In this document: positions 6,101-23,406 of the stretch, piece after piece
How positions within the stretch are numbered: the stretch's first letter is position 1
How the letters are laid out: every line of letters begins with the position of its first letter
IMG/VR virus record: IMGVR_UViG_3300026097_000772
Coordinates: 1-30,895 of that record
Direction: 5' to 3' (one strand)
DNA from: a virus
DNA length: 30,895 bases
Notes under the pieces: generated by a model
Databases searched by the model: none
What the model saw: only the letters and a program-made list of their open reading frames with translations
What the model was told of the DNA's origin: nothing
Program-made: the position numbers and the translations under genes

Positions 6101-6706
6101 ATGGTAAACATAAAGCATGTCGGAAGACTCATTAAGAGTAAGAGACGTGTAGTTGTTGCTTATCGCGTAGTACCGGGCGAGCCCGAAAACTGTGTTGTGA
6201 TTACAACAGAAACACTTTCAGCAGACGAGCATGACGCTCTAATGAAAGTGATTGAATCACACGCAGGGCAGGAAGCCAATGAGCTTGCTCCGGTGCTATC
6301 AAGGTCTACTCTACCGGACGGTCGCAACATGCTTGCGGCCTTTCACACAACTGGTAAAATGATGAAACATGCTACCAGTGACGTGGAAATGATTCCGAAC
6401 AACACAACCACTATTGCGCTAAATGAACTCAACGAGATGATTGCGCAACAAATGGGTGTTACTGTAGCAGATCTTGCAATGGCTGATACCACAACTACTC
6501 AAACTGCTCCAGCAGAAACAGCAGAAGAAATTGCTGTTGAACCCGCAGTTGCTCCTGCAACCGACGGTGTACTTACGGATGAGGACTTGGCTAGACAGTA
6601 TAGATCGCAAGCTGACGCCATGTTCAAAGAAGCCAAAAGACTGAGAGAACAGGCGGAAGAACTTGCTCCAACAAAAAAGAAAACAAAGAGTGAGCAAACA
6701 GAATAA
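6101..6706 (+). CDS. Phage hypothetical protein with coiled-coil tail, 201 aa
   Basis: The start at 6101 (MVNIKHVGRLIKSKRRVVV) follows the previous stop by four bases. A longer in-frame extension from 5999 would overlap the previous gene by almost 100 bases and reads as out-of-frame sequence. The N-terminal 120 residues form a mixed domain (VVVAYRVVPGEPENCVVITTETL, DEHDALMKVIES). A Thr/Ala/Glu linker (about 135-160) leads to a charged helix (DEDLARQYRSQADAMFKEAK) likely to be a coiled coil. No catalytic motif is visible. The layout would suit a structural or scaffold-associated protein, but that is a guess. Confidence 0.82.
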   Translation: MVNIKHVGRLIKSKRRVVVAYRVVPGEPENCVVITTETLSADEHDALMKVIESHAGQEANELAPVLSRSTLPDGRNMLAAFHTTGKMMKHATSDVEMIPNNTTTIALNELNEMIAQQMGVTVADLAMADTTTTQTAPAETAEEIAVEPAVAPATDGVLTDEDLARQYRSQADAMFKEAKRLREQAEELAPTKKKTKSEQTE

Positions 6707-7009: not shown

Positions 7010-7017
7010 CATAAATA
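7010..7017 (+). promoter_or_regulatory. T4-type late promoter octamer for the fibre gene
   Basis: CATAAATA differs from the T4 late consensus TATAAATA only at its first base. It lies three bases after the stop of the gene before and 30 bases before the fibre ATG. With the usual T4 spacing, transcription would start near 7023, inside the inverted repeat that follows. Confidence 0.6.
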
Positions 7018-11031: not shown

Positions 11032-12269
11032 ATGACATTTGATTCCTTTATTTTTTCTTCTGCTTGTTCTATAACATTAGATTCGTAAAATATTTCAGTC
11101 CAGGGATATACCGAAAATATTGTGCTGGTCTGTAATACTGTTCTACCGCATGCTTGTTTTAACAAAACATCAGTTTCTGTTATAACATCACAATCTAAAA
11201 ACAAAAACTCTCTACTATTTTTCCAGTCTTCCCAGTCTGTAAATACTCGTTCAGTGATTATAGTACTAAGTTTTTTTGCTCTAACCGCATCTATTTCAAA
11301 CACAGGCTCTGTACTGAGATTATTTACATCAGCATATTCTTTAGCAAAAGCATCGTAGTCTATACCGTCCCATTCTTCATATAAGGTTCTCTTAAAGTGG
11401 ATATTGTTTTTGTTTTTATCATAAAATACAATTTTTTTTGCGTTACCTATTAACGCAAATGTTTCTGCTAAAAATCCTGTAGCTGGAACTATTACTGTAT
11501 CTACTGATTCGTCTAATATTGCTTGTTCATAATGCCAAACATTTATTAGATTCATCTGCTTGGCTTTAATAAGAGCATCCATTAAAACACTTTGCGCTTC
11601 GTCTAGTCCTGGCACCATTGTGATGTTTTTTAAAGCATATTCAAATGCCTTAGTGGCTCTTGTGGGATAACAAAATCCTCTGCTAGGCAACCTAACATCT
11701 AAAATATATTCATTTAGGTGCGGAGGATATCTCCAATCCATATCCCAGTTGCTGGTACTATAGCCATTTAGAAGACAATGTTCTATAAGTTTGGTTCCAA
11801 AGGCATCTTGTCGTGTTACTTTGTTTTCGCCTAAGGTAAAATACAACGGAGCATGACCGTCATGCATGTCTTCTGTACTTCGCAGTATTTCCCAACTTTT
11901 GGTTTCGCCGGTAGAAAAATCTAACTTTGTAAATGCTTGTGTGTTTATAATAAAGAACTGTTCGTGCATCCACGGAGTCTCGTCACCGTGCTGCAATAGA
12001 TTTCCCATGAGGCCAATATTCTCATCAATCTCGTGTATTTTTTTCCATAGATGATCTCGTTCTATGATTATGTTACCTGCTGTTACTACTATGAGATAAT
12101 CGTATATTTCTAAATACTTATTTAGGTCATGATAATCTGCTATTTCATGTACTGGATAACCCGACATATTGAGAGTTGCCAAAAATCTTTTGGTTATTCT
12201 CATCATTTTGTCGTTTAACCATTTACTGCTAGAAAAGCTCGGTACTAAAAAGAAACTGACCTTGTTCAT
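11016..12269 (-). CDS. Large unknown protein, possibly two-domain transferase
   Basis: A 417-residue protein I do not recognise as a whole. The N-terminal part (YLIVVTAGNIIIERDHLW, then GLMGNLLQHGDETPWMHEQFFIIN) reads like a GT-A-type glycosyltransferase core, where an Asp-containing loop after a buried strand binds a nucleotide sugar. The C-terminal part (TVIVPATGFLAETFAL, then KKIVFYDKNKNNIHFK) looks like a Rossmann-type strand-loop-helix, with an acidic residue after the next strand as in class I methyltransferases. It overlaps its upstream neighbour by 41 bases and the kinase-like gene by 16. Both domain suggestions are weak, so treat this as an unknown modifying enzyme. Confidence 0.55.
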   Translation of the reverse strand: MNKVSFFLVPSFSSSKWLNDKMMRITKRFLATLNMSGYPVHEIADYHDLNKYLEIYDYLIVVTAGNIIIERDHLWKKIHEIDENIGLMGNLLQHGDETPWMHEQFFIINTQAFTKLDFSTGETKSWEILRSTEDMHDGHAPLYFTLGENKVTRQDAFGTKLIEHCLLNGYSTSNWDMDWRYPPHLNEYILDVRLPSRGFCYPTRATKAFEYALKNITMVPGLDEAQSVLMDALIKAKQMNLINVWHYEQAILDESVDTVIVPATGFLAETFALIGNAKKIVFYDKNKNNIHFKRTLYEEWDGIDYDAFAKEYADVNNLSTEPVFEIDAVRAKKLSTIITERVFTDWEDWKNSREFLFLDCDVITETDVLLKQACGRTVLQTSTIFSVYPWTEIFYESNVIEQAEEKIKESNVIWIQA

Positions 12270-12885
12270 TTGATTCCTCTAGTGCATCTATCATTAACTG
12301 TTTCCATTCATCAGTACTGTCGTAATGATGCACGATTAAATGATATCTGTCTTGGTTACTGTTGTTTTTTACACTGTGTTCGTAGCTGAGATTCATTGCA
12401 TAAGCATCGCCAGGATTGAAGTTTACCGTAGATCCGTCTTTCCAGTGCCAAACACAGTCTTGGGGGTTTGTTAGCGCAATATTGATTGCTCCGAGAACAC
12501 TATGAGTAGTATCGATGTGAGGTTCTATATATCCACCTGGTTCTAATAACATAAATCTTACTCTTGCATAGCTATTACTAGGGTATACCGTTTTTAACCA
12601 GTTTGTTGTTACCGGACACAAGTCTGCTATTTCTGTATATTCCATATCAAAGGCGGCATCTCTAGCTGACGAATATTCTTCGTAACAGTTCCAAGCATAC
12701 GGCTCTGTGCTAGATTTTCCAATAATAGGTAAACTATGCCAGCCACTTGTAACATATGTGCTTCTATAAGGTACAAACTTTTCTCTTAGCCGCTTTGCTT
12801 CTATTGCCATTACTTCATGCGGTACTTCTATATTTAACTTTAAACAACGAGCTGTAGATAAAAGATATTCTCTGCCATTAAACAT
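12229..12885 (-). CDS. Aspartyl/asparaginyl beta-hydroxylase-like oxygenase
   Basis: A 218-residue cupin-type Fe(II)/2-oxoglutarate oxygenase. The iron site is visible as H123-x-D125 (PGGYIEPHIDT) and H170 (LSYEHSV), with R180 (NQDRYHL) in the place that binds 2-oxoglutarate. LxPGGxIxPHxD and the GSTVNFNPGDAYAMNLSYEH stretch are typical of the Asp/Asn hydroxylase family, which hydroxylates Asp, Asn or other residues or small molecules. It is the first gene of a minus-strand block. The ATG is preceded by GTTAAGTA five bases upstream, a weak match to the late octamers used at other block heads. Family call is firm, substrate unknown. Confidence 0.88.
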   Translation of the reverse strand: MFNGREYLLSTARCLKLNIEVPHEVMAIEAKRLREKFVPYRSTYVTSGWHSLPIIGKSSTEPYAWNCYEEYSSARDAAFDMEYTEIADLCPVTTNWLKTVYPSNSYARVRFMLLEPGGYIEPHIDTTHSVLGAINIALTNPQDCVWHWKDGSTVNFNPGDAYAMNLSYEHSVKNNSNQDRYHLIVHHYDSTDEWKQLMIDALEESNEQGQFLFSTELF

Positions 12886-12932
12886 ATATGTACTTAACTG
12901 TTATCATATGTATTCTTTGTAATACTGATGTT

Positions 12933-12940
12933 GATAAATA
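12933..12940 (+). promoter_or_regulatory. Late-promoter octamer five bases before an ATG
   Basis: GATAAATA matches the T4 late consensus TATAAATA at seven of eight positions. It is followed by TCTTT and the ATG at 12946. T4 late promoters start transcription about six bases after the octamer, which would be the A of this ATG. The start codon at 12946 was chosen partly for this reason, over an ATG at 12928. Confidence 0.55.
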
Positions 12941-12945
12941 TCTTT

Positions 12946-13755
12946 ATGATAAAAGGTATCGGCGGTAAGCCTTACATAAACTTAGACCAATATTTGGATA
13001 TAGATGGATTTCAAAAATTGCATCCAGAAATCTGCAAAGGATTTGCACTGGCTAGAGAATATGCCAAAGAAGGAACTTGGATGACTCCCGGATTTAACTT
13101 TGACGATATGAGTTATATTGTTAATTGGAAACCTATATATAAGGCATTTGCAGAATTCCAAGAGTTACCAGACGACAACCCTATTAAAGTTCACGGAATG
13201 GAAATATTTCCCAAAGATTTTAAGGACTATCGTCAAAGAAATATGTTTACAAGATACCTGAAAGGTGCATTAGGAGCAAACGATCCTTACATTTATTATT
13301 TCCTCTGGGAAGAAGGAAGCTGGGACGAACGTAATGCTGAAAGAGCTCCAACTGAAGAACAACAATATTTTCCAGGAGTGGTTCGCTGGGTGGAAAATCT
13401 CATTGATGAAAGTATTATTGATCGGATTGGGCGTGTTATATTCTTCCATTGTGATCATAACGGACATGCATTCGAGCACAGGGACCTAGACGGCAGACAT
13501 GGCGACGACCAAGGTTATAGTCCGCACAATAATGAGTTTATACATATACGCTACCGTACAAAAAGAGGGTTTTATATTTGGGATCCAGAAGAAGAAAACA
13601 AATACTACATTAACAGTAATGCTGCTTTTTGGAATGATCAAGATTGGCACGGAGGCGAAGGATCTAAAGAACAAGAATACGGTTTAAGAATAGATTGTAC
13701 CTTTACTCCAGAGTTTAGAAAAACTTTAGGTATAGATCATTTAGACAGTTACTAA
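12946..13755 (+). CDS. Fe(II)/2OG oxygenase-like protein
   Basis: A 269-residue protein. The C-terminal half has the jelly-roll oxygenase signature: H178-x-D180 (FEHRDLD), H235 (DWHGG) and R248 (YGLRID), in the order expected of Asp/Asn-hydroxylase-like enzymes. The N-terminal 110 residues are a mixed domain with a GGKPYIN start. An ATG at 12928 would add six residues that read into the promoter octamer, so I prefer 12946. Its stop overlaps the ATG of the following twitch radical SAM gene (TAATG), so the two are very probably coupled. This is the only block with an oxygenase directly upstream of a radical SAM gene. Substrate unknown. Confidence 0.78.
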   Translation: MIKGIGGKPYINLDQYLDIDGFQKLHPEICKGFALAREYAKEGTWMTPGFNFDDMSYIVNWKPIYKAFAEFQELPDDNPIKVHGMEIFPKDFKDYRQRNMFTRYLKGALGANDPYIYYFLWEEGSWDERNAERAPTEEQQYFPGVVRWVENLIDESIIDRIGRVIFFHCDHNGHAFEHRDLDGRHGDDQGYSPHNNEFIHIRYRTKRGFYIWDPEEENKYYINSNAAFWNDQDWHGGEGSKEQEYGLRIDCTFTPEFRKTLGIDHLDSY

Positions 13756-15014
13756 TGAAATATTCAAAGGACACAATCTGTCCATATCCTTTTAACTATA
13801 TTAGCACAACTAACAGCGGCACATTTCGTACCTGTTGCGAAAGCTTAGGTATCGGAGTTTCGGCAGAAGATTATAATGCAGACGAAGTTTGGAATGGAGA
13901 TTTTTACAAAGGATTACGTAAAGATCTTATTAACGGAATACAACACCCTAACTGTGCAAGATGCTGGAAAAATGAGCAACAAGGTCTTATTTCTACAAGA
14001 CAAAAAGAAGTACTAAGCTACGACGAAGACTATCTTATTTCTCTGATAGACAAAACAGACGAAGACGGTTATTTAGATTATACTCCAGAAACATTTGAGT
14101 TTAAGATAGGTAATCTATGTAATCTCAAATGCATTATGTGTACGCAGATGGAAAGTTCCCAACACGAAGCGGAACTAGTATTTTTTAGACAAAAACAAGT
14201 AGACCTTCCACAGACTCTAAACTACATAGAGGAACACGTACGAGATAAAGATCAGATTTATCGTTATCAAAAATCTCAACAGAAAAAAATGTTAGATAGA
14301 TTACTAACTATAATGCCCAATCTTAAACTTCTTAAGATAGTAGGCGGGGAACCTTTTATAAATCCGCTGACCAATGACATATTAGATCTTGCAATAGAAC
14401 ACAATCATCATAAAACAATATCTTTAGAGATTATATCCAACCTCTATCAAACAGATTTTAAATATATACAAAAGGCTAAACAGTTCAAAAATTTTAGACT
14501 TTTATGTAGTATTGATCATATAGAACAAGAAAAATTCAACTTTATAAGATTCCCCTGTAAATATACCGAAGTAGAAAATAATTTTTTCAAACTATTACAC
14601 GATACAGAAATAGATTTAGAAATATCAGCTACATTTAACATTTTTAATATTTTTGACATGAAGGAAATTCTACAACAATTTGAGTTTTGGTCTAAACAGA
14701 GAGAAAAAGAACTTCCTGTTAGAATAAATTATGTAGACGAACCAAGATATTTTTCGTTTCAATACCTTTCACCGGAGCTAAGACAACAAGTAGAGATATT
14801 AGTAGAAAGGGTAGTTTTGGAGTTTGAATCTAGTAAGCTTTTTGCAGAAAACAATCAGTTATATGATTATCTTAAAAGCACAAAGAACTTTATAAAACAC
14901 CCTCCTGAGGATTTTAAAGAAGTTGTAGAAGAAAGATCAAGAGTGTTAAAACTTTATGATAATACTCGCGGTACAGACTATAAATCTTTATTTTTACATT
15001 TAAACACGCTCTAG
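13755..15014 (+). CDS. Twitch-domain radical SAM enzyme
   Basis: A 419-residue protein with an N-terminal twitch-like cysteine region (C9; C27-C28; C67 and C70 in HPNCARC) placed before the radical SAM core. The core has CNLKCIMC (C122, C126, C129), which holds the 4Fe-4S cluster that cleaves S-adenosylmethionine, and GGEP at 197-200, which contacts the SAM amino group. Long helical and charged segments follow to the C-terminus (KFNFIRFPCKY, then YDYLKSTKNFIKHPP). This arrangement matches the N-terminal-twitch radical SAM family. The reaction is unknown. It is coupled to the oxygenase upstream by TAATG and its end overlaps the convergent SDR gene by 15 bases. The C-terminal third is A+T-rich and Lys-rich. 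Confidence 0.9.
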   Translation: MKYSKDTICPYPFNYISTTNSGTFRTCCESLGIGVSAEDYNADEVWNGDFYKGLRKDLINGIQHPNCARCWKNEQQGLISTRQKEVLSYDEDYLISLIDKTDEDGYLDYTPETFEFKIGNLCNLKCIMCTQMESSQHEAELVFFRQKQVDLPQTLNYIEEHVRDKDQIYRYQKSQQKKMLDRLLTIMPNLKLLKIVGGEPFINPLTNDILDLAIEHNHHKTISLEIISNLYQTDFKYIQKAKQFKNFRLLCSIDHIEQEKFNFIRFPCKYTEVENNFFKLLHDTEIDLEISATFNIFNIFDMKEILQQFEFWSKQREKELPVRINYVDEPRYFSFQYLSPELRQQVEILVERVVLEFESSKLFAENNQLYDYLKSTKNFIKHPPEDFKEVVEERSRVLKLYDNTRGTDYKSLFLHLNTL

Positions 15015-15518
15015 TCCGGGCACTCCGCCATTGGTAATTTCGTAAACCTTTGGCAAAAATGCCCGTCTAGTAATAATATCGTTAACCGCATAGATTATTT
15101 GATCTGCTTCAACTTCGGGAATATTGTTAGAACCTTGGCCAAACTTTGAAACGTTGATTATCGCACTGTTCTTTATTGAAGAATGCACATATTCTAAAAA
15201 AAGCTTATGAGCAATATATTCATGAGTGCCATAATATTTCATTTGATTCCAGGAAAACTTTGTTATTAAACTGCCAAAACTTATATTGATTTTTGCCTTA
15301 CTTCTTTCCAATAAGAAACTTTGGACAAATCCAAGATGAGCAATATTCAAAAAAACATCTGCAGAATTTGTTAATTGAACTAACCTATCCTGTTGCTCTT
15401 CTTTATATAAATCCCAGCCATATAATCTGCTTATAGGAGTTACATTATAAATAACTTTATAATGATCGTATAACATTTTGCCTATAGGACTAGTAGCTCC
15501 AGTTAAAACTATATTCAT
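15000..15518 (-). CDS. Short SDR-type NAD(P)-binding oxidoreductase/epimerase-like
   Basis: A 172-residue protein with the glycine-rich nucleotide motif at the N-terminus (VLTGATSPIGKML), a later SFGSL strand where SDR enzymes have the catalytic Ser, and YIAHK matching the YxxxK pair. It is shorter than most SDRs (about 240-330), so substrate-binding parts may be reduced. The ATG at 15518 shares one base with the stop of the oxygenase-like gene upstream (TAATG), so I prefer it to a TTG four codons earlier. It closes a minus-strand block and overlaps the end of the opposing radical SAM gene. Sugar-nucleotide modification is possible. Confidence 0.75.
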   Translation of the reverse strand: MNIVLTGATSPIGKMLYDHYKVIYNVTPISRLYGWDLYKEEQQDRLVQLTNSADVFLNIAHLGFVQSFLLERSKAKINISFGSLITKFSWNQMKYYGTHEYIAHKLFLEYVHSSIKNSAIINVSKFGQGSNNIPEVEADQIIYAVNDIITRRAFLPKVYEITNGGVPGLERV

Positions 15519-16102
15519 TATATTCCCCAAACATTAAACAAAAATTTTGTTGATAGACCGGCATTTGACCCTGCATGCCAACTGGATCGTTCTGGCCATT
15601 TATATATTGCACCTTTATATTCATTGTAAAAGCAATGATCATCTACTACAAAAAAATGCCCGGGCTGAGGATCTGTAATATGACAATGAAATCTTTGAAC
15701 AGTTTTTGTTTCGCCTATAGTCCGATATTCGTCGGTGATATCCCAATGCCAAGGCGCCATATGACCAGGTTTAATGCTGCTGATCCAACAGAAATAAGAC
15801 TCCTCTAGTCCAACATATTTACAGAATTGGGTTAAAACCGTCATTTCAAAATCTTTACCCGGAAAATACATTCCCCAGCCCATGCTTCCGCCTTCTGACA
15901 ATAGGCAGTGTCCGGCGGACCTTATCGCAGAGGCAACATTATATGCTCCTTCTACATTAGCTGTGTTTACATCATGTGTAGGACCAACATAAGACGGCTC
16001 TGTATTTGTAATCTGTTGGACTACTTTATCCCAATCTATAATTTCGGAACAATTACCAATATAATCAGCCACAAATAAAATTTTCCGGCCAATTGCCAAC
16101 AT
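15518..16102 (-). CDS. Fe(II)/2OG oxygenase-like protein, short
   Basis: A 194-residue protein. The C-terminal half carries PWHWD (H119 and D121) and SSWHAGSN (H176), which together would make the iron triad of a cupin oxygenase. The usual 2-oxoglutarate Arg position is Lys (K186), a change that some oxygenases tolerate. RFHCHITDPQPGHFFVVDDH between them fits the jelly roll. I use the ATG at 16102. A TTG at 16117 would be an alternative. Either overlaps the kinase-like gene, by 38 or 53 bases. It is third in a four-gene block headed by an Asp/Asn hydroxylase. Activity is plausible but not shown. Confidence 0.7.
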   Translation of the reverse strand: MLAIGRKILFVADYIGNCSEIIDWDKVVQQITNTEPSYVGPTHDVNTANVEGAYNVASAIRSAGHCLLSEGGSMGWGMYFPGKDFEMTVLTQFCKYVGLEESYFCWISSIKPGHMAPWHWDITDEYRTIGETKTVQRFHCHITDPQPGHFFVVDDHCFYNEYKGAIYKWPERSSWHAGSNAGLSTKFLFNVWGI

Positions 16103-16622
16103 TTTTTTGGATGGCAATATTATACGATTTAACGATATCCAAATAATTTCCTACAAAAGGAAATCTTTCTTTATCGTGAATAGTAGATTCAATATCTGCT
16201 TTAAGTATTTTTTCTTCGCCGTGAGCAATTGCATAATTGTCTATAAGAAAAAAATCTTCATTTTTATAGAAAAATGTGTGAGGATAAAAATTAAGTTTGT
16301 AAATTCCATTATCTTCTAAATCTTTTTTAATTTCTAAAATTTTTTGTTTATAGTTTTTTGGCAATCTGTTAAAATGTATCATATGATTAAGATTGTCTTC
16401 ATATGCTAAAGAAACTAATCGTTGTTCTTCGTCCACTTCAGTAATTTGCGGAGCATAGGGTTTATTTTTCAACATTTCTATACCCAAAAGCTCACGCCGA
16501 AACCAATATTCAGATTTAAAATACATTGTATAAATGGTACTATCATAATATGCATCGTATACATCATTAGCATTTGCATAACGCCCTTCTGTGTCATATT
16601 TGAAAAACTTTTCTTTATTCAT
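16065..16622 (-). CDS. Kinase-fold-like protein (paralogue of 10330-11031)
   Basis: A 185-residue protein with the same order of motifs as the protein at 10330-11031: a Lys in a strand (K36, YTMYFKS), a helix Glu (FRRELLGIE, 41-49), a strand pair (RLVSLAYED), then IYKLNFYPHTFFY and FFLIDNYAI. Here an Asp is kept where kinases have DFG (D128), but the catalytic-loop Asp is Asn (N111) or missing. It is shorter, starting eight bases inside the Asp/Asn hydroxylase gene. The two kinase-like genes each follow a hydroxylase in their block, so the pairing is repeated. Fold assignment is by eye and should be tested by structure prediction. Confidence 0.5.
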   Translation of the reverse strand: MNKEKFFKYDTEGRYANANDVYDAYYDSTIYTMYFKSEYWFRRELLGIEMLKNKPYAPQITEVDEEQRLVSLAYEDNLNHMIHFNRLPKNYKQKILEIKKDLEDNGIYKLNFYPHTFFYKNEDFFLIDNYAIAHGEEKILKADIESTIHDKERFPFVGNYLDIVKSYNIAIQKNVGNWPENFICG

Positions 16623-17298
16623 ATGTTACCACCATGTTTTCTAAGTTAAGCGTCTTAAAATTTCCAAGTAGACTTTCGCACAACTTAAACGAAGCAGTGC
16701 TTCCATCAAATTTGAAATTTGAAATTTTTCCTGCTTTGTTTGCTGAATTCAAGAATGGACTTATATTCTTATCAAAAATATATCTTCCATTTACAACCTG
16801 AGTGGTTATAGATACAAAAACGGAAGCTGTGTTGCTACTCTTTAATAACTCGCGCACTACTAGCTGCATTCTTGCATGATCTCCAAAATTTACAGCAGTA
16901 TGTACAACTCCGGCATCCATATACCACCAACTTGCATCCTTTACCAATTCATACATGTTGTGTAAATTTAAATCTATTAAAAAACACTGCTCACCTGATA
17001 AGTTCATATGCCAGCGGTTGTCAATATCACTATGTGCCATATAACAGTCGCCGGGTTGCATTATAATAATGCGTGCTTCACCTTTTCTACCTTCTAAACT
17101 ATTGTATAATTTTTCAAGTGGAGTATCCTTGTATTCTCTTTTTAGGTTCCACTTGTCATAGAAGAAATCTCCACTAGGCTCATTTAGAATCATTTTTATT
17201 TTATCGTCATAGTTAATGTATGGATACTGTGTTAAAATATATTTGTAACAATCTTGAATATTTTTGTTATTTACTGAACAGGAAGTCTTTGTTAGCAT
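16615..17298 (-). CDS. Aspartyl/asparaginyl beta-hydroxylase-like oxygenase
   Basis: A 227-residue protein with H89-x-D91 (GDCYMAHSD), H133 (GVVHTAVNFGD) and R143 (ARMQLV), the iron triad and 2-oxoglutarate Arg expected of the Asp/Asn hydroxylase family. NRWHMNLSGEQCFL (94-107) fits the family, in which a conserved His and Arg follow the HxD. The C-terminal 70 residues are an extra beta-rich tail (SVFVSITTQVVNGRYIF). It is the first gene of a minus-strand block and has a late-type octamer four bases before its ATG. It overlaps the kinase-like gene by eight bases. It differs strongly from the other hydroxylase at 12229-12885, so the two are not a recent duplication. Confidence 0.85.
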   Translation of the reverse strand: MLTKTSCSVNNKNIQDCYKYILTQYPYINYDDKIKMILNEPSGDFFYDKWNLKREYKDTPLEKLYNSLEGRKGEARIIIMQPGDCYMAHSDIDNRWHMNLSGEQCFLIDLNLHNMYELVKDASWWYMDAGVVHTAVNFGDHARMQLVVRELLKSSNTASVFVSITTQVVNGRYIFDKNISPFLNSANKAGKISNFKFDGSTASFKLCESLLGNFKTLNLENMVVTYE

Positions 17299-17302
17299 AT
17301 AC

Positions 17303-17310
17303 TATTTATC
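17303..17310 (-). promoter_or_regulatory. Late-promoter octamer four bases before a minus-strand ATG
   Basis: On the minus strand GATAAATA reads towards the hydroxylase gene at 17298 and is followed by GTAT and ATG. It has seven of eight matches to TATAAATA. Together with the octamer at 17339-17346 on the other strand it forms a divergent promoter pair inside a 53-base gap. Confidence 0.55.
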
Positions 17311-17338
17311 AGTTCGTTAACAGACAAAAAATTGTATT

Positions 17339-17346
17339 GGTAAATA
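17339..17346 (+). promoter_or_regulatory. Late-promoter octamer five bases before the PP-loop ATG
   Basis: GGTAAATA (six of eight matches to TATAAATA) is followed by ATTTT and the ATG at 17352. The spacing is the same as at 12933-12940. It supports 17352 as the start, since an in-frame ATG at 17220 would place the octamer inside the gene and overlap the divergent hydroxylase. Confidence 0.5.
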
Positions 17347-17351
17347 ATTTT

Positions 17352-18071
17352 ATGCTGATAGACCAAGTCGAAATACCTATACATTCAAAATGGAGCCGTA
17401 TAGGAATCAGTGTAAGCGGCGGGGCCGATTCTGCATTACTAGCTTATTTAATATGCAGTAATACTGATGCTGATATAATTATAACAAATCAAATTAGATG
17501 TTGGAAGACCCGGCCGTGGCAAGAATATGTAGCGGACACTGTAATTAGTTATTTGCAATCTAAGTTCAGTAACATAAAATATGTAGAAAAAAATTTTATA
17601 CCTCCAGATCTAGAATGGGGTAGAAATGGTCCAAATATAATTGACGAGTACGGCAAATTGAAAAGCGGCAACCAAATAATTTTAAGAAGTTTTAACGAAT
17701 ATATCGGACACAAGTATAATCTTGATGCTTGGTTTGCGGCTATAAACAAAAATCCTAGTATAGATATTCCCGGTGCATTAGAAGATCGTAATCAAGGACA
17801 TGTTTCTCCCGCAATGACACACATGGGGATATCTGTCTATCATCCCTTTGTACACATAATGAAAGATTGGATCATTAAACAATATTATAATTTAAAAATT
17901 GAAGGGTTGTTGGCTTTAACTAGAAGTTGCGAAGGTGATAAGATAGATTATCCACATATATTCAACGACTTAGATTATACAACATATACACCTGGACAAA
18001 TTGTTCCTACTTGCGGAGAATGCTTCTGGTGCAAAGAAAGAGAGTGGGGCATTGAGCAAGCAACCAAATAG
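17352..18071 (+). CDS. QueC-like PP-loop ATP pyrophosphatase
   Basis: A 239-residue protein of the N-type ATP pyrophosphatase family. The PP-loop SGGADS is at 22-27 after a SRIGISV strand. The C-terminus has C193 and then CGECFWCKER (C221, C224, C227, R230), the spacing of the zinc site of QueC, which makes 7-cyano-7-deazaguanine (preQ0) from carboxydeazaguanine. Length (QueC is about 220-230) also fits. QueD and a clear QueE are not seen in the window, so the substrate could be the host's carboxydeazaguanine or something else. I leave the symbol empty for that reason. It heads a four-gene + block. The next gene starts 20 bases inside it. Confidence 0.78.
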   Translation: MLIDQVEIPIHSKWSRIGISVSGGADSALLAYLICSNTDADIIITNQIRCWKTRPWQEYVADTVISYLQSKFSNIKYVEKNFIPPDLEWGRNGPNIIDEYGKLKSGNQIILRSFNEYIGHKYNLDAWFAAINKNPSIDIPGALEDRNQGHVSPAMTHMGISVYHPFVHIMKDWIIKQYYNLKIEGLLALTRSCEGDKIDYPHIFNDLDYTTYTPGQIVPTCGECFWCKEREWGIEQATK

Positions 18072-19323
18072 TTGTACATTCTGTATGCATCCTTTTACTG
18101 GACTTGCTACACGTGAAGACGGCGCTATTAAAGTATGCTGTCGCAGTCAGCCCGTCGGCTGGATACAGAAAGAAAGTTTAGAAGAGGCATGGAATAATGA
18201 TGCCATGCGTGAAGTGCGTAGGCAGGTTTTAAACAATGAAAGACCCGATGTTTGTAAACCCTGCTTTGACCTTGAAGATCAGGGTGTCGAGAGCTTACGA
18301 CAGCGTCACACAGCGGGCGTTATACCCGAAGCACGTAGCAACTTATATCCCGACGCATTAGATGCGCTAGAAGACGATTATACTATGCCTTTTGAATTTC
18401 CCACAATGGAAATCAAACTTAACAATCTTTGCAATCTAAAATGTCGCATGTGTAATCCACTTGACAGTACTAGTTGGAAGGATTGGGGCGCAATACGAAG
18501 CCATTATGAGAAAGAAAATAACTACCTTATTCCCACAGTGGACGCATTAGTTGACACTCCTGGACAGTATATAGGTCCTTTTGACAACAGTGACAATTGG
18601 TGGAACAGTTTTGAAAAACTCCTACCTCACTTTAGGCGTGTTGAATTTGCAGGCGGTGAGCCCCTGATGGATCCTTACCACTATAAGATTCTTGACAAAT
18701 TAGCACAGTATGGTGAGAACATAGAACTGAAATATGCAACTAATGGAACCACATTAGGAATTAAAGGCGGACGTACAATACACGACTACTGGCCCAAGTT
18801 TAAAAGCATTGCTGTAAACGTAAGCATAGACGGCATACACAATGTTTATGAATATATTAGAGGCAATGGCAAGTTTTCGGAAATAGAAGAAAATATAAAG
18901 GTATTTAAATCGTTTCCTAATGTTAGTAGAGTGGTAGGTGCATTTACAGTACAAGCAAATAATATCTTACAGATTGCAGAAGTAATAGATTACTTCATAA
19001 ACAAAATGGGCATAGTGTTCTATTCTCATCGCGTTAATTATCCAAGAGCATTGAGTGCGCAAACTTTACCTCTGCCGTTAAAGAAAAGAGTTATCGCAGA
19101 ACTAGAAGATATGAAAACAACAGTTTTAGAATATCCAATGGTAAAAGAACATAAACTTCTAGAACAAGTGACCCTGCAACAAATACAAGATAACATAAAT
19201 TTTTTACAAGCAAACGATCTTAGCGAGTTTTGGCAAGATTGCATAGACTTCAATTTAAGCTTAGATGCCACTAGGAATCAAGAGTTCTTTTCAGTTAATC
19301 CCGAGTTTAAACGTTATGCTTAA
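18052..19323 (+). CDS. Twitch-domain radical SAM enzyme, TTG start
   Basis: I choose a TTG at 18052, preceded by GAGAGTGGGG, because the only nearby ATG (18085) would cut away the first two cysteines of the twitch region. The resulting 423-residue protein has C8 and C11, C29-C30 and C68/C71 (VCKPC) before the core, then CNLKCRMC (C117, C121, C124) and GGEP (191-194). It is close in layout to the proteins at 13755 and 21997. The end (WQDCIDFNLSLDATRNQEF) is helical and carries one more Cys. It overlaps the PP-loop gene by 20 bases and the next gene by eight, so translation is probably coupled. The substrate is unknown. Confidence 0.9.
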   Translation: MSKQPNSCTFCMHPFTGLATREDGAIKVCCRSQPVGWIQKESLEEAWNNDAMREVRRQVLNNERPDVCKPCFDLEDQGVESLRQRHTAGVIPEARSNLYPDALDALEDDYTMPFEFPTMEIKLNNLCNLKCRMCNPLDSTSWKDWGAIRSHYEKENNYLIPTVDALVDTPGQYIGPFDNSDNWWNSFEKLLPHFRRVEFAGGEPLMDPYHYKILDKLAQYGENIELKYATNGTTLGIKGGRTIHDYWPKFKSIAVNVSIDGIHNVYEYIRGNGKFSEIEENIKVFKSFPNVSRVVGAFTVQANNILQIAEVIDYFINKMGIVFYSHRVNYPRALSAQTLPLPLKKRVIAELEDMKTTVLEYPMVKEHKLLEQVTLQQIQDNINFLQANDLSEFWQDCIDFNLSLDATRNQEFFSVNPEFKRYA

Positions 19324-22000: not shown

Positions 22001-23406
22001 AATAAATGTGCTAATTCTGGAAATATTTTCTTTGCATCTAATCCACGAATATCGTCTAACTTATTAGTATATTCTTTGAATCCCGGAAGCAGATGACTGT
22101 TGTCTTGTGCATCCATATGATCAAGAACTGCTTCCCATCTACGCCATCCGTAAGGATTAATTTTCCAGAAGTCGTCGTCCTGTCTGTAGTTCTTCCAAAG
22201 CCAGTCTTTGAAATTCATATATAAATCGCGAACTTCTTGTTTGTCTTCTTTGGGAAGTATTTGTATACTTAGAAATGTAGGTATGTATAGCAGATGCATA
22301 TTCACCAGTCCACCACCCATTTGTACACCTCCCGGAACTGTGCCACTGTTTAACTTTTTGAATCCGCTTTCTACTTTCCACTTCATGAAGTCGGGTAGGT
22401 GTTTTACATTGAATATTTGAATTGCTGTTGCAAGACTTGTCTGTATATTATCAGGCGTATTATCTAGTAAATGTAGTGTGCGATCCACAGTGTCCCAATC
22501 TGTAGGGAAGCGAATGTATTCATCCCGTTCGTATGCAGCATCCATGCTTACTGCAAACTTAACCTTTTTAAACTTGCTCCACAATTCAATTAAATCTTCA
22601 TCTACTAATAGTCCGTTAGAGTTATATCTTAACAAAATCTTATCTTGATATCCTTGACGTACTATTTCCTCTATAAACTGTTTGTGTTCTTTGATCATTA
22701 GAGGTTCGCCGCCGGCAAAGTACACTTGTTTTAGATTTGGTATTTGACGATACATTTCTTCCCAAAATGTATCTTTCTCGTGCCACTTGTTATTGAACTC
22801 AGATTGATCCCATTGCATCTGTTGCTTAACTTCATCTATCTGAAGCACAGGAATTAGTTGCTTCCAATCTTTAACCCATTTTGAACTGTCATGGGGCGAA
22901 CACATTACGCACTTAATATTGCAGGTATGTCCTAGCCTTAGATCAAGATACACCAATTCTTCAGGCACAGTGCCATCTTCTTTGGTCTGTCTTATAAGTT
23001 CAGGAATATCTACTCCATCTTCGTGCCATGTCCCTGTTTCCCAAACACGTTTGCTTACTACTCCTACCTTTTCTTCTTCGAAGCACTTACGACAACTGTT
23101 AGGTATTTCTCCTTTTAACATAGTTGTACGAACACTTTTCATGTATTCATTGTTCCATGCCTCCATAGGAGTTTCTCTGCCAAAGTTTGCAGGGCGGCCA
23201 TGTTCCATTTTAACAAGGCCTACTTCGTGATCTTCTCCTGCACCGCTAGCATTTGCGCTACAACACAATCTCATATCCCCGTTCGGACGAGTAGCGAAAT
23301 GTATCCAAGGTAATACACAGAATGTAGGAGTTCCTGCAACACTTTCTATATCTCTTTGATATTTTCCTAATTTAGAATTTTCTGCATTATACCAAAATTT
23401 AGACAT
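21997..23406 (-). CDS. Twitch-domain radical SAM enzyme, 469 aa
   Basis: The twitch region is complete: C30 (TFCVLPW), C48-C49 (LCCSA), C105 and C108 (SCRKC). Between them is an EAWNNEYMKSVR segment similar to the EAWNNDAMREVR stretch of the protein at 18052. The radical SAM core follows with CNIKCVMC (C162, C166, C169) and GGEP at 232-235. After the core, a VSMDAAYERDEYIRFP segment and an aromatic C-terminal part (FWKINPYGWRRWEAV) follow. It starts eight bases before the end of the methyltransferase gene, and its stop couples by ATGA to the next gene. The similarity to 18052-19323 suggests they share an origin, but the other radical SAM groups are not close. Confidence 0.92.
   Translation of the reverse strand: MSKFWYNAENSKLGKYQRDIESVAGTPTFCVLPWIHFATRPNGDMRLCCSANASGAGEDHEVGLVKMEHGRPANFGRETPMEAWNNEYMKSVRTTMLKGEIPNSCRKCFEEEKVGVVSKRVWETGTWHEDGVDIPELIRQTKEDGTVPEELVYLDLRLGHTCNIKCVMCSPHDSSKWVKDWKQLIPVLQIDEVKQQMQWDQSEFNNKWHEKDTFWEEMYRQIPNLKQVYFAGGEPLMIKEHKQFIEEIVRQGYQDKILLRYNSNGLLVDEDLIELWSKFKKVKFAVSMDAAYERDEYIRFPTDWDTVDRTLHLLDNTPDNIQTSLATAIQIFNVKHLPDFMKWKVESGFKKLNSGTVPGGVQMGGGLVNMHLLYIPTFLSIQILPKEDKQEVRDLYMNFKDWLWKNYRQDDDFWKINPYGWRRWEAVLDHMDAQDNSHLLPGFKEYTNKLDDIRGLDAKKIFPELAHLL

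Follow-up and report, generated by a model that had tools for sequence, protein, structure and literature searches.

The window analysed here is a stretch of 30,895 nucleotides, positions 1 to 30,895 of the IMG/VR virus record IMGVR_UViG_3300026097_000772, and is included in a longer IMG/VR contig of 82,491 bp (IMGVR_UViG_3300007609_000010, designated G001). Two clear divergent gene pairs are located within the window, and all four genes at their heads (12885-, 12946+, 17298- and 17352+) carry an octamer of the form NNTAARTA 4-5 nt before the ATG (Table 1). An earlier note had claimed that octamers lie 4-5 bases before the ATGs at 12946, 17298 and 17352, that a weaker octamer lies five bases before the ATG at 12885, and that the fibre gene, which has an octamer together with a leader and a ribosome site, serves as an internal contrast. 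All of these claims held; the gaps of the first three octamers were 5, 4 and 5 nt, respectively, and the fibre gene has the layout of an ordinary leadered late promoter. There is no space for a Shine-Dalgarno (SD) sequence between the octamer and the ATG at 12946, and T is found at position -1 of all four heads. No shared feature emerged when the starts of the four mRNAs were folded. Between 13755 and 30655, the window also contains a dense cluster of genes for radical-SAM proteins (several matches), on both strands and beside 2OG-oxygenase-like genes, which is unusual for a phage.

Table 1 Octamers and genes of the window, with the S21 genes of related phages. Promoter function is putative, and leaderless mRNAs are predictions inferred from sequence alone.
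Feature	Position	Strand	Remarks
Putative late-promoter octamer GATAAATA	12933-12940	+	5 nt before ATG 12946
Gene heading + block	12946-13755	+	Predicted leaderless mRNA from 12946
Weaker octamer GTTAAGTA	12891-12898	-	5 nt before ATG 12885; TAAGTACATATATG at G001:69936-69949
Aspartyl/asparaginyl beta-hydroxylase-like gene, heads - block	12229-12885	-	PF05118, E 8e-16
Putative late-promoter octamer GATAAATA	17303-17310	-	4 nt before ATG 17298
2OG-oxygenase-like gene, heads - block	16615-17298	-	Weak PF05118 match
Putative late-promoter octamer GGTAAATA	17339-17346	+	5 nt before ATG 17352
QueC-like gene	17352-18071	+	phrog_1550, E 5e-5; predicted leaderless mRNA from 17352
Contrast octamer CATAAATA	7010-7017	+	30-nt gap and AGGAG before fibre-gene ATG 7048
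Ribosomal protein S21 gene	G002 332212-332364
Ribosomal protein S21 gene	G003 181826-181981
Ribosomal protein S21 gene	G004 23004-23159
Ribosomal protein S21 gene	HTVC008M 91237-91392

Mechanical open reading frame (ORF) calls placed the starts of the two rightward genes at 12928 and 17220, both upstream of the octamers. The start at 12928 is probably wrong and 12946 the true one, because the latter is supported by conservation and the upstream ATG is missing in most relatives. The start at 17352 was favoured because of the octamer, because the longer ORF overlaps the opposite gene, and because of the closest homologues. The chance level that the earlier note had proposed to count was also determined. 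RRTAAATA was not in excess in the window (6 occurrences versus 11.2 expected from shuffles). Half of these occurrences (three), however, end 4-5 nt short of the ATG of a gene start, where 0.015 were expected (P about 5e-7). The informative feature of the octamers in the window is therefore their position, and not their number.

Conservation was assessed at homologous loci. For the 12946 gene, 80 viral loci were reduced to 40 clusters by removal of near-copies, and the TAARTA core was present at a gap of 4-5 nt before the ATG in 32 of them. These 32 clusters had the octamer and no SD, seven had an SD-like motif and no octamer, one had neither and none had both (Fisher 4e-7), which demonstrated that octamer and SD are mutually exclusive at this locus. 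Where a co-oriented gene lies upstream, the octamer was absent in 6/6 cases and an SD-like motif was found instead. The codons directly after the ATG were kept, with synonymous changes. For the 17352 gene, 80 loci yielded 47 clusters, of which 36 carried the octamer at a gap of 4-6 nt; the start shifts by up to about 11 codons among these homologues, and the octamer shifts along with it. The octamer/SD contrast did not reach significance among the 47 clusters, since copies without the octamer were scarce and an SD was seldom present in them. The conservation check proposed in the earlier note was thus passed at both the 12946 and 17352 heads, where the octamer and its distance to the ATG were kept in relatives. 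The 12885 and 17298 genes had almost no identifiable homologues, and the direct evidence for conservation is therefore limited to the octamers of the 12946 and 17352 genes.

Five larger relatives (G002-G006, 160-358 kb) were then pooled, with simple ORF calls taken as genes, and TAARTA was counted before every ATG within the first 30 codons of the called genes. The motif occurred 19 times at gap 4 and 63 times at gap 5, only 1-6 times at each gap from 6 to 15 (about three per gap), and again in a broad second hump at gaps 16-31. Internal ATGs, used as a control, showed no peak, with 10 occurrences at gap 5 among 4943. The gap distribution therefore indicated two classes of site, one fused to the start codon and one leadered. 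The octamers read NNTAARTA, mostly RRTAAATA or RRTAAGTA, with mostly R or G ahead of TAARTA, and the start codons at gap 4-5 were ATG in 82 cases and GTG or TTG in three.

The fused class also differed from other genes around the start codon. An SD of four or more bases was found in 17/87 fused genes (20%) versus 602/928 others (65%) in G002-G006, and the counts overall gave 20% and 10% of the fused class versus 65-67% of other genes. The SD-like four-base matches in about 20% of the fused class lie mostly within or upstream of the octamer. A pyrimidine occupied position -1 in 94% of the fused class versus 39% elsewhere (p 1e-25), and in 99% of the gap-5 cases; T was dominant and C accounted for 20%. 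Genes that lack both SD and octamer showed no such bias, with a pyrimidine at -1 in only 41-49%. These counts are not fully independent, as the pooled genomes share orthologous late genes. Direct observations are the motif and its conservation, the constant distance and link to the ATG, the lack of an SD, the -1 pyrimidine and the presence of a gp55 gene. Gap-4 octamers were followed by C in 65% of cases and gap-5 octamers mostly by T or A; the spacer may possibly adjust start-site choice.

Fused sites were also present in cultured phages. In pelagiphage HTVC008M, 11 start-region ATGs have TAAATA at gap 5, and those starts that were checked in the independent GenBank annotation lay exactly 5 nt after the box. 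The genes so placed include gp2, gp4, gp48, the tape measure, the baseplate wedge, tail completion and others. Six fused sites were found in Mosig and three in the OM43 phage Melnitz, versus 1 among 400 start-region ATGs in T4 and 0 among 294 in Syn9. The three sites each of Melnitz and of Rhizobium phage RHph_I1_18 are at most weak evidence alone. Gene 2 is preceded by ATAAATA-N5-ATG in HTVC008M, Mosig and Melnitz, and gp2 of HTVC008M is <40% identical to that of the other two. The fused class thus extends over a large group of T4-like phages from aquatic habitats, some of them cultured on SAR11, an abundant ocean bacterium. As a separate observation, TATATT immediately before the ATG was strongly over-represented among the starts of HTVC008M, Mosig and Melnitz (21 versus 1 expected).

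The most compact form of the arrangement was found between divergent genes. Among the 12946 clusters with a box on both sides, the divergent ATGs were 26-27 bp apart in 23/25, in the arrangement CAT-N5-TAYTTA-N4/5-TAARTA-N5-ATG. In L005, L022, L041 and about 20 other homologue loci, back-to-back octamers occupy the entire 26-28 bp between the divergent ATGs, and there is therefore no space for a leader on either side. The gp2/gp4 pair of HTVC008M (18917-18942) is one such case. IMG/VR was scanned for the back-to-back element, and the cores were separated by N4 in 118 stretches, by N5 in at least 120 and by N6 in 106. After removal of near-copies, ORFs of >=80 residues lay on both sides in 49/73, 65/86 and 42/65 of these, respectively, versus 2.7% of random CAT-N26-ATG pairs under a slightly looser rule. 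A rigid palindrome with fixed octamer spacing was rejected, as real gene pairs were found with 4, 5 and 6 nt between the cores; the variable spacing indicates two abutting promoters.

A gene for a gp55-type late sigma factor (phrog_234) is present in G001 at 6337-6675 (-), with an E value of 1.7e-23. Six other relatives also encode it, and E values over the whole set, G001 included, range from 3e-22 to 1e-24; no phrog_234 match was found in G003. In G002, fused octamers precede genes for the terminase, tail tube, baseplate wedge and virion proteins. The pattern is thus wider than the earlier note held: it extends to virion genes and to pelagiphages in culture, and takes in divergent promoters placed back to back. 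A run of CTATTTTTTTGRG is conserved directly before the fused octamer of the terminase-type gene in G002 (58087, -), G003 (251723, -), G004 (109129, -) and G006 (143106, +); it looks as though an intrinsic terminator of the previous gene might abut the promoter.

Taken together, the octamers are most likely T4 late promoters in a leaderless version, a reading made without RNA 5' ends or protein N-termini, in which leaderlessness is inferred. In the proposed mechanism, the octamers would be T4-type late promoters whose -10 box is read by the phage gp55 sigma factor, and transcription would begin on the A of the ATG or no more than about one base away. Late mRNAs made in this way would be leaderless and translated via their 5'-terminal AUG without an SD. 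Ordinary late promoters, 16-31 nt upstream of an ATG with an SD, are kept in the same phages. The T4 late octamer spans -13 to -6 (PMC2988020), so that with a 5-nt gap +1 coincides with the first base of the ATG; the claim of the earlier note that a T4-type start falls there is supported by this geometry, as an inference. Polymerases favour a purine at +1 preceded by a pyrimidine, and because of this preference the -1 pyrimidine together with the A at +1 matches a start at the A of the ATG. The sequence tests likewise support the prediction of nearly leaderless late mRNAs. Use of the octamers by gp55-RNA polymerase, late transcription dependent on gp55 and gp45, the exact start site and leaderless translation are inferred, as no expression data were available.

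Several points weigh against this reading. The match of the octamers to -13 to -6 itself presupposes that +1 is the A of the ATG. A gap-4 site puts a T4-type +1 on the T of the ATG, and some start-site flexibility is therefore needed. The octamer letters depart from those of T4, TAAGTA being frequent, and it is possible that an upstream promoter giving a leader coexists with the late octamer. The missing phrog_234 match in G003 and the four-base SD-like matches in about 20% of the fused class count against the reading as well.

The alternative that survives best is that the octamers are late promoters, but that transcription starts several bases upstream or downstream, giving very short leaders, or that a downstream start codon is used. 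The gap is either 4 or 5, and RNA polymerase start sites are known to wobble by 1-2 nt. We consider this alternative unlikely, since the -1 pyrimidine preference falls on the ATG itself, the codons after the ATG are conserved in the 12946 homologues, and gaps 6-15 are nearly empty. It is very improbable that TAARTA is a translational or operon feature, either the TAA stop of an upstream gene by the next ATG or a -1 U that pairs with initiator tRNA. In its favour, T predominates at -1, and in 6/87 and 3/21 cases the upstream gene ends with the TAA that the motif contains. Stop-codon coupling was rejected, as it accounts for only these few cases and most motif TAAs are not stops; furthermore, 32/87 are divergent heads with no adjacent same-strand upstream gene, C at -1 is unexplained by U pairing, and SD-less genes without the octamer show no -1 bias. 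It is also very improbable that the boxes are -10 elements of the host sigma70 type, from which early or middle mRNAs without leaders would arise: hosts are known to have TA-rich boxes some 10 bp ahead of leaderless genes (PMC3160421), but the box is TAARTA and not TATAAT, it agrees with the T4 late octamer, the phages encode gp55 and virion genes are in the class.

Ribosomal protein S21 is encoded by G002, G003, G004, HTVC008M, Mosig and Melnitz, and is absent in T4 and Syn9. A link between S21 and leaderless late mRNAs did not survive extension to further phages: S21 is also encoded by PA5oct, Atu_ph07, SCTP-2 and Phosso, and their TAARTA-N5-ATG counts were not clearly above the reversed-pattern control.

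Under the preferred reading, that of a leaderless T4-type late promoter, the kind of promoter known from T4, a textbook system whose mRNAs have leaders and ribosome sites, appears to yield leaderless virion-gene mRNAs in very abundant marine phages. Fused promoters would pinpoint start codons, which gene calling based on SDs may overlook, and offer a direct route to test leaderless translation during infection. The fused octamer also supplies a late-promoter motif for pelagimyophages, in which published late-promoter prediction failed (PMC7029224). No description of a fused late-promoter class was found in the open-access literature searched. A bolder reading, toward which we lean only slightly, is that a large aquatic T4-like lineage that includes the pelagiphages runs part of its virion programme via leaderless late mRNAs, with the promoter fused to the start codon, divergent pairs compressed to 26-28 bp, and late translation dependent on leaderless initiation by host ribosomes, a pathway that the phage may tune.

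The fused promoters resemble the T4 late promoter (TATAAATA, gp55/gp33/gp45) in octamer type, in the presence of a gp55-type sigma gene and in their place before virion genes, and the leadered subset at gaps 16-31 with an SD resembles T4 as well. They differ in that a second class lies 4-5 nt before the ATG without an SD, TAAGTA variants are frequent, and the two 5' letters of the octamer are different. They are similar to the TA-led leaderless genes of bacteria and archaea (Zheng et al. 2011, PMC3160421), which lack an SD and have a box resembling a -10 element some 10 bp ahead of the start codon, yet the box here would belong to a phage late sigma system, and neither host sigma70 nor an archaeal TATA box would be involved. 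Like bidirectional bacterial promoters (PMC12825309), the back-to-back octamers predict divergent starts within a very short stretch; those of E. coli are most often 18 bp apart, with 10 and 23 bp also common (PMC12825309), whereas here two separate octamers stand back to back, with 26-28 bp between the ATGs and both transcripts predicted to be leaderless.
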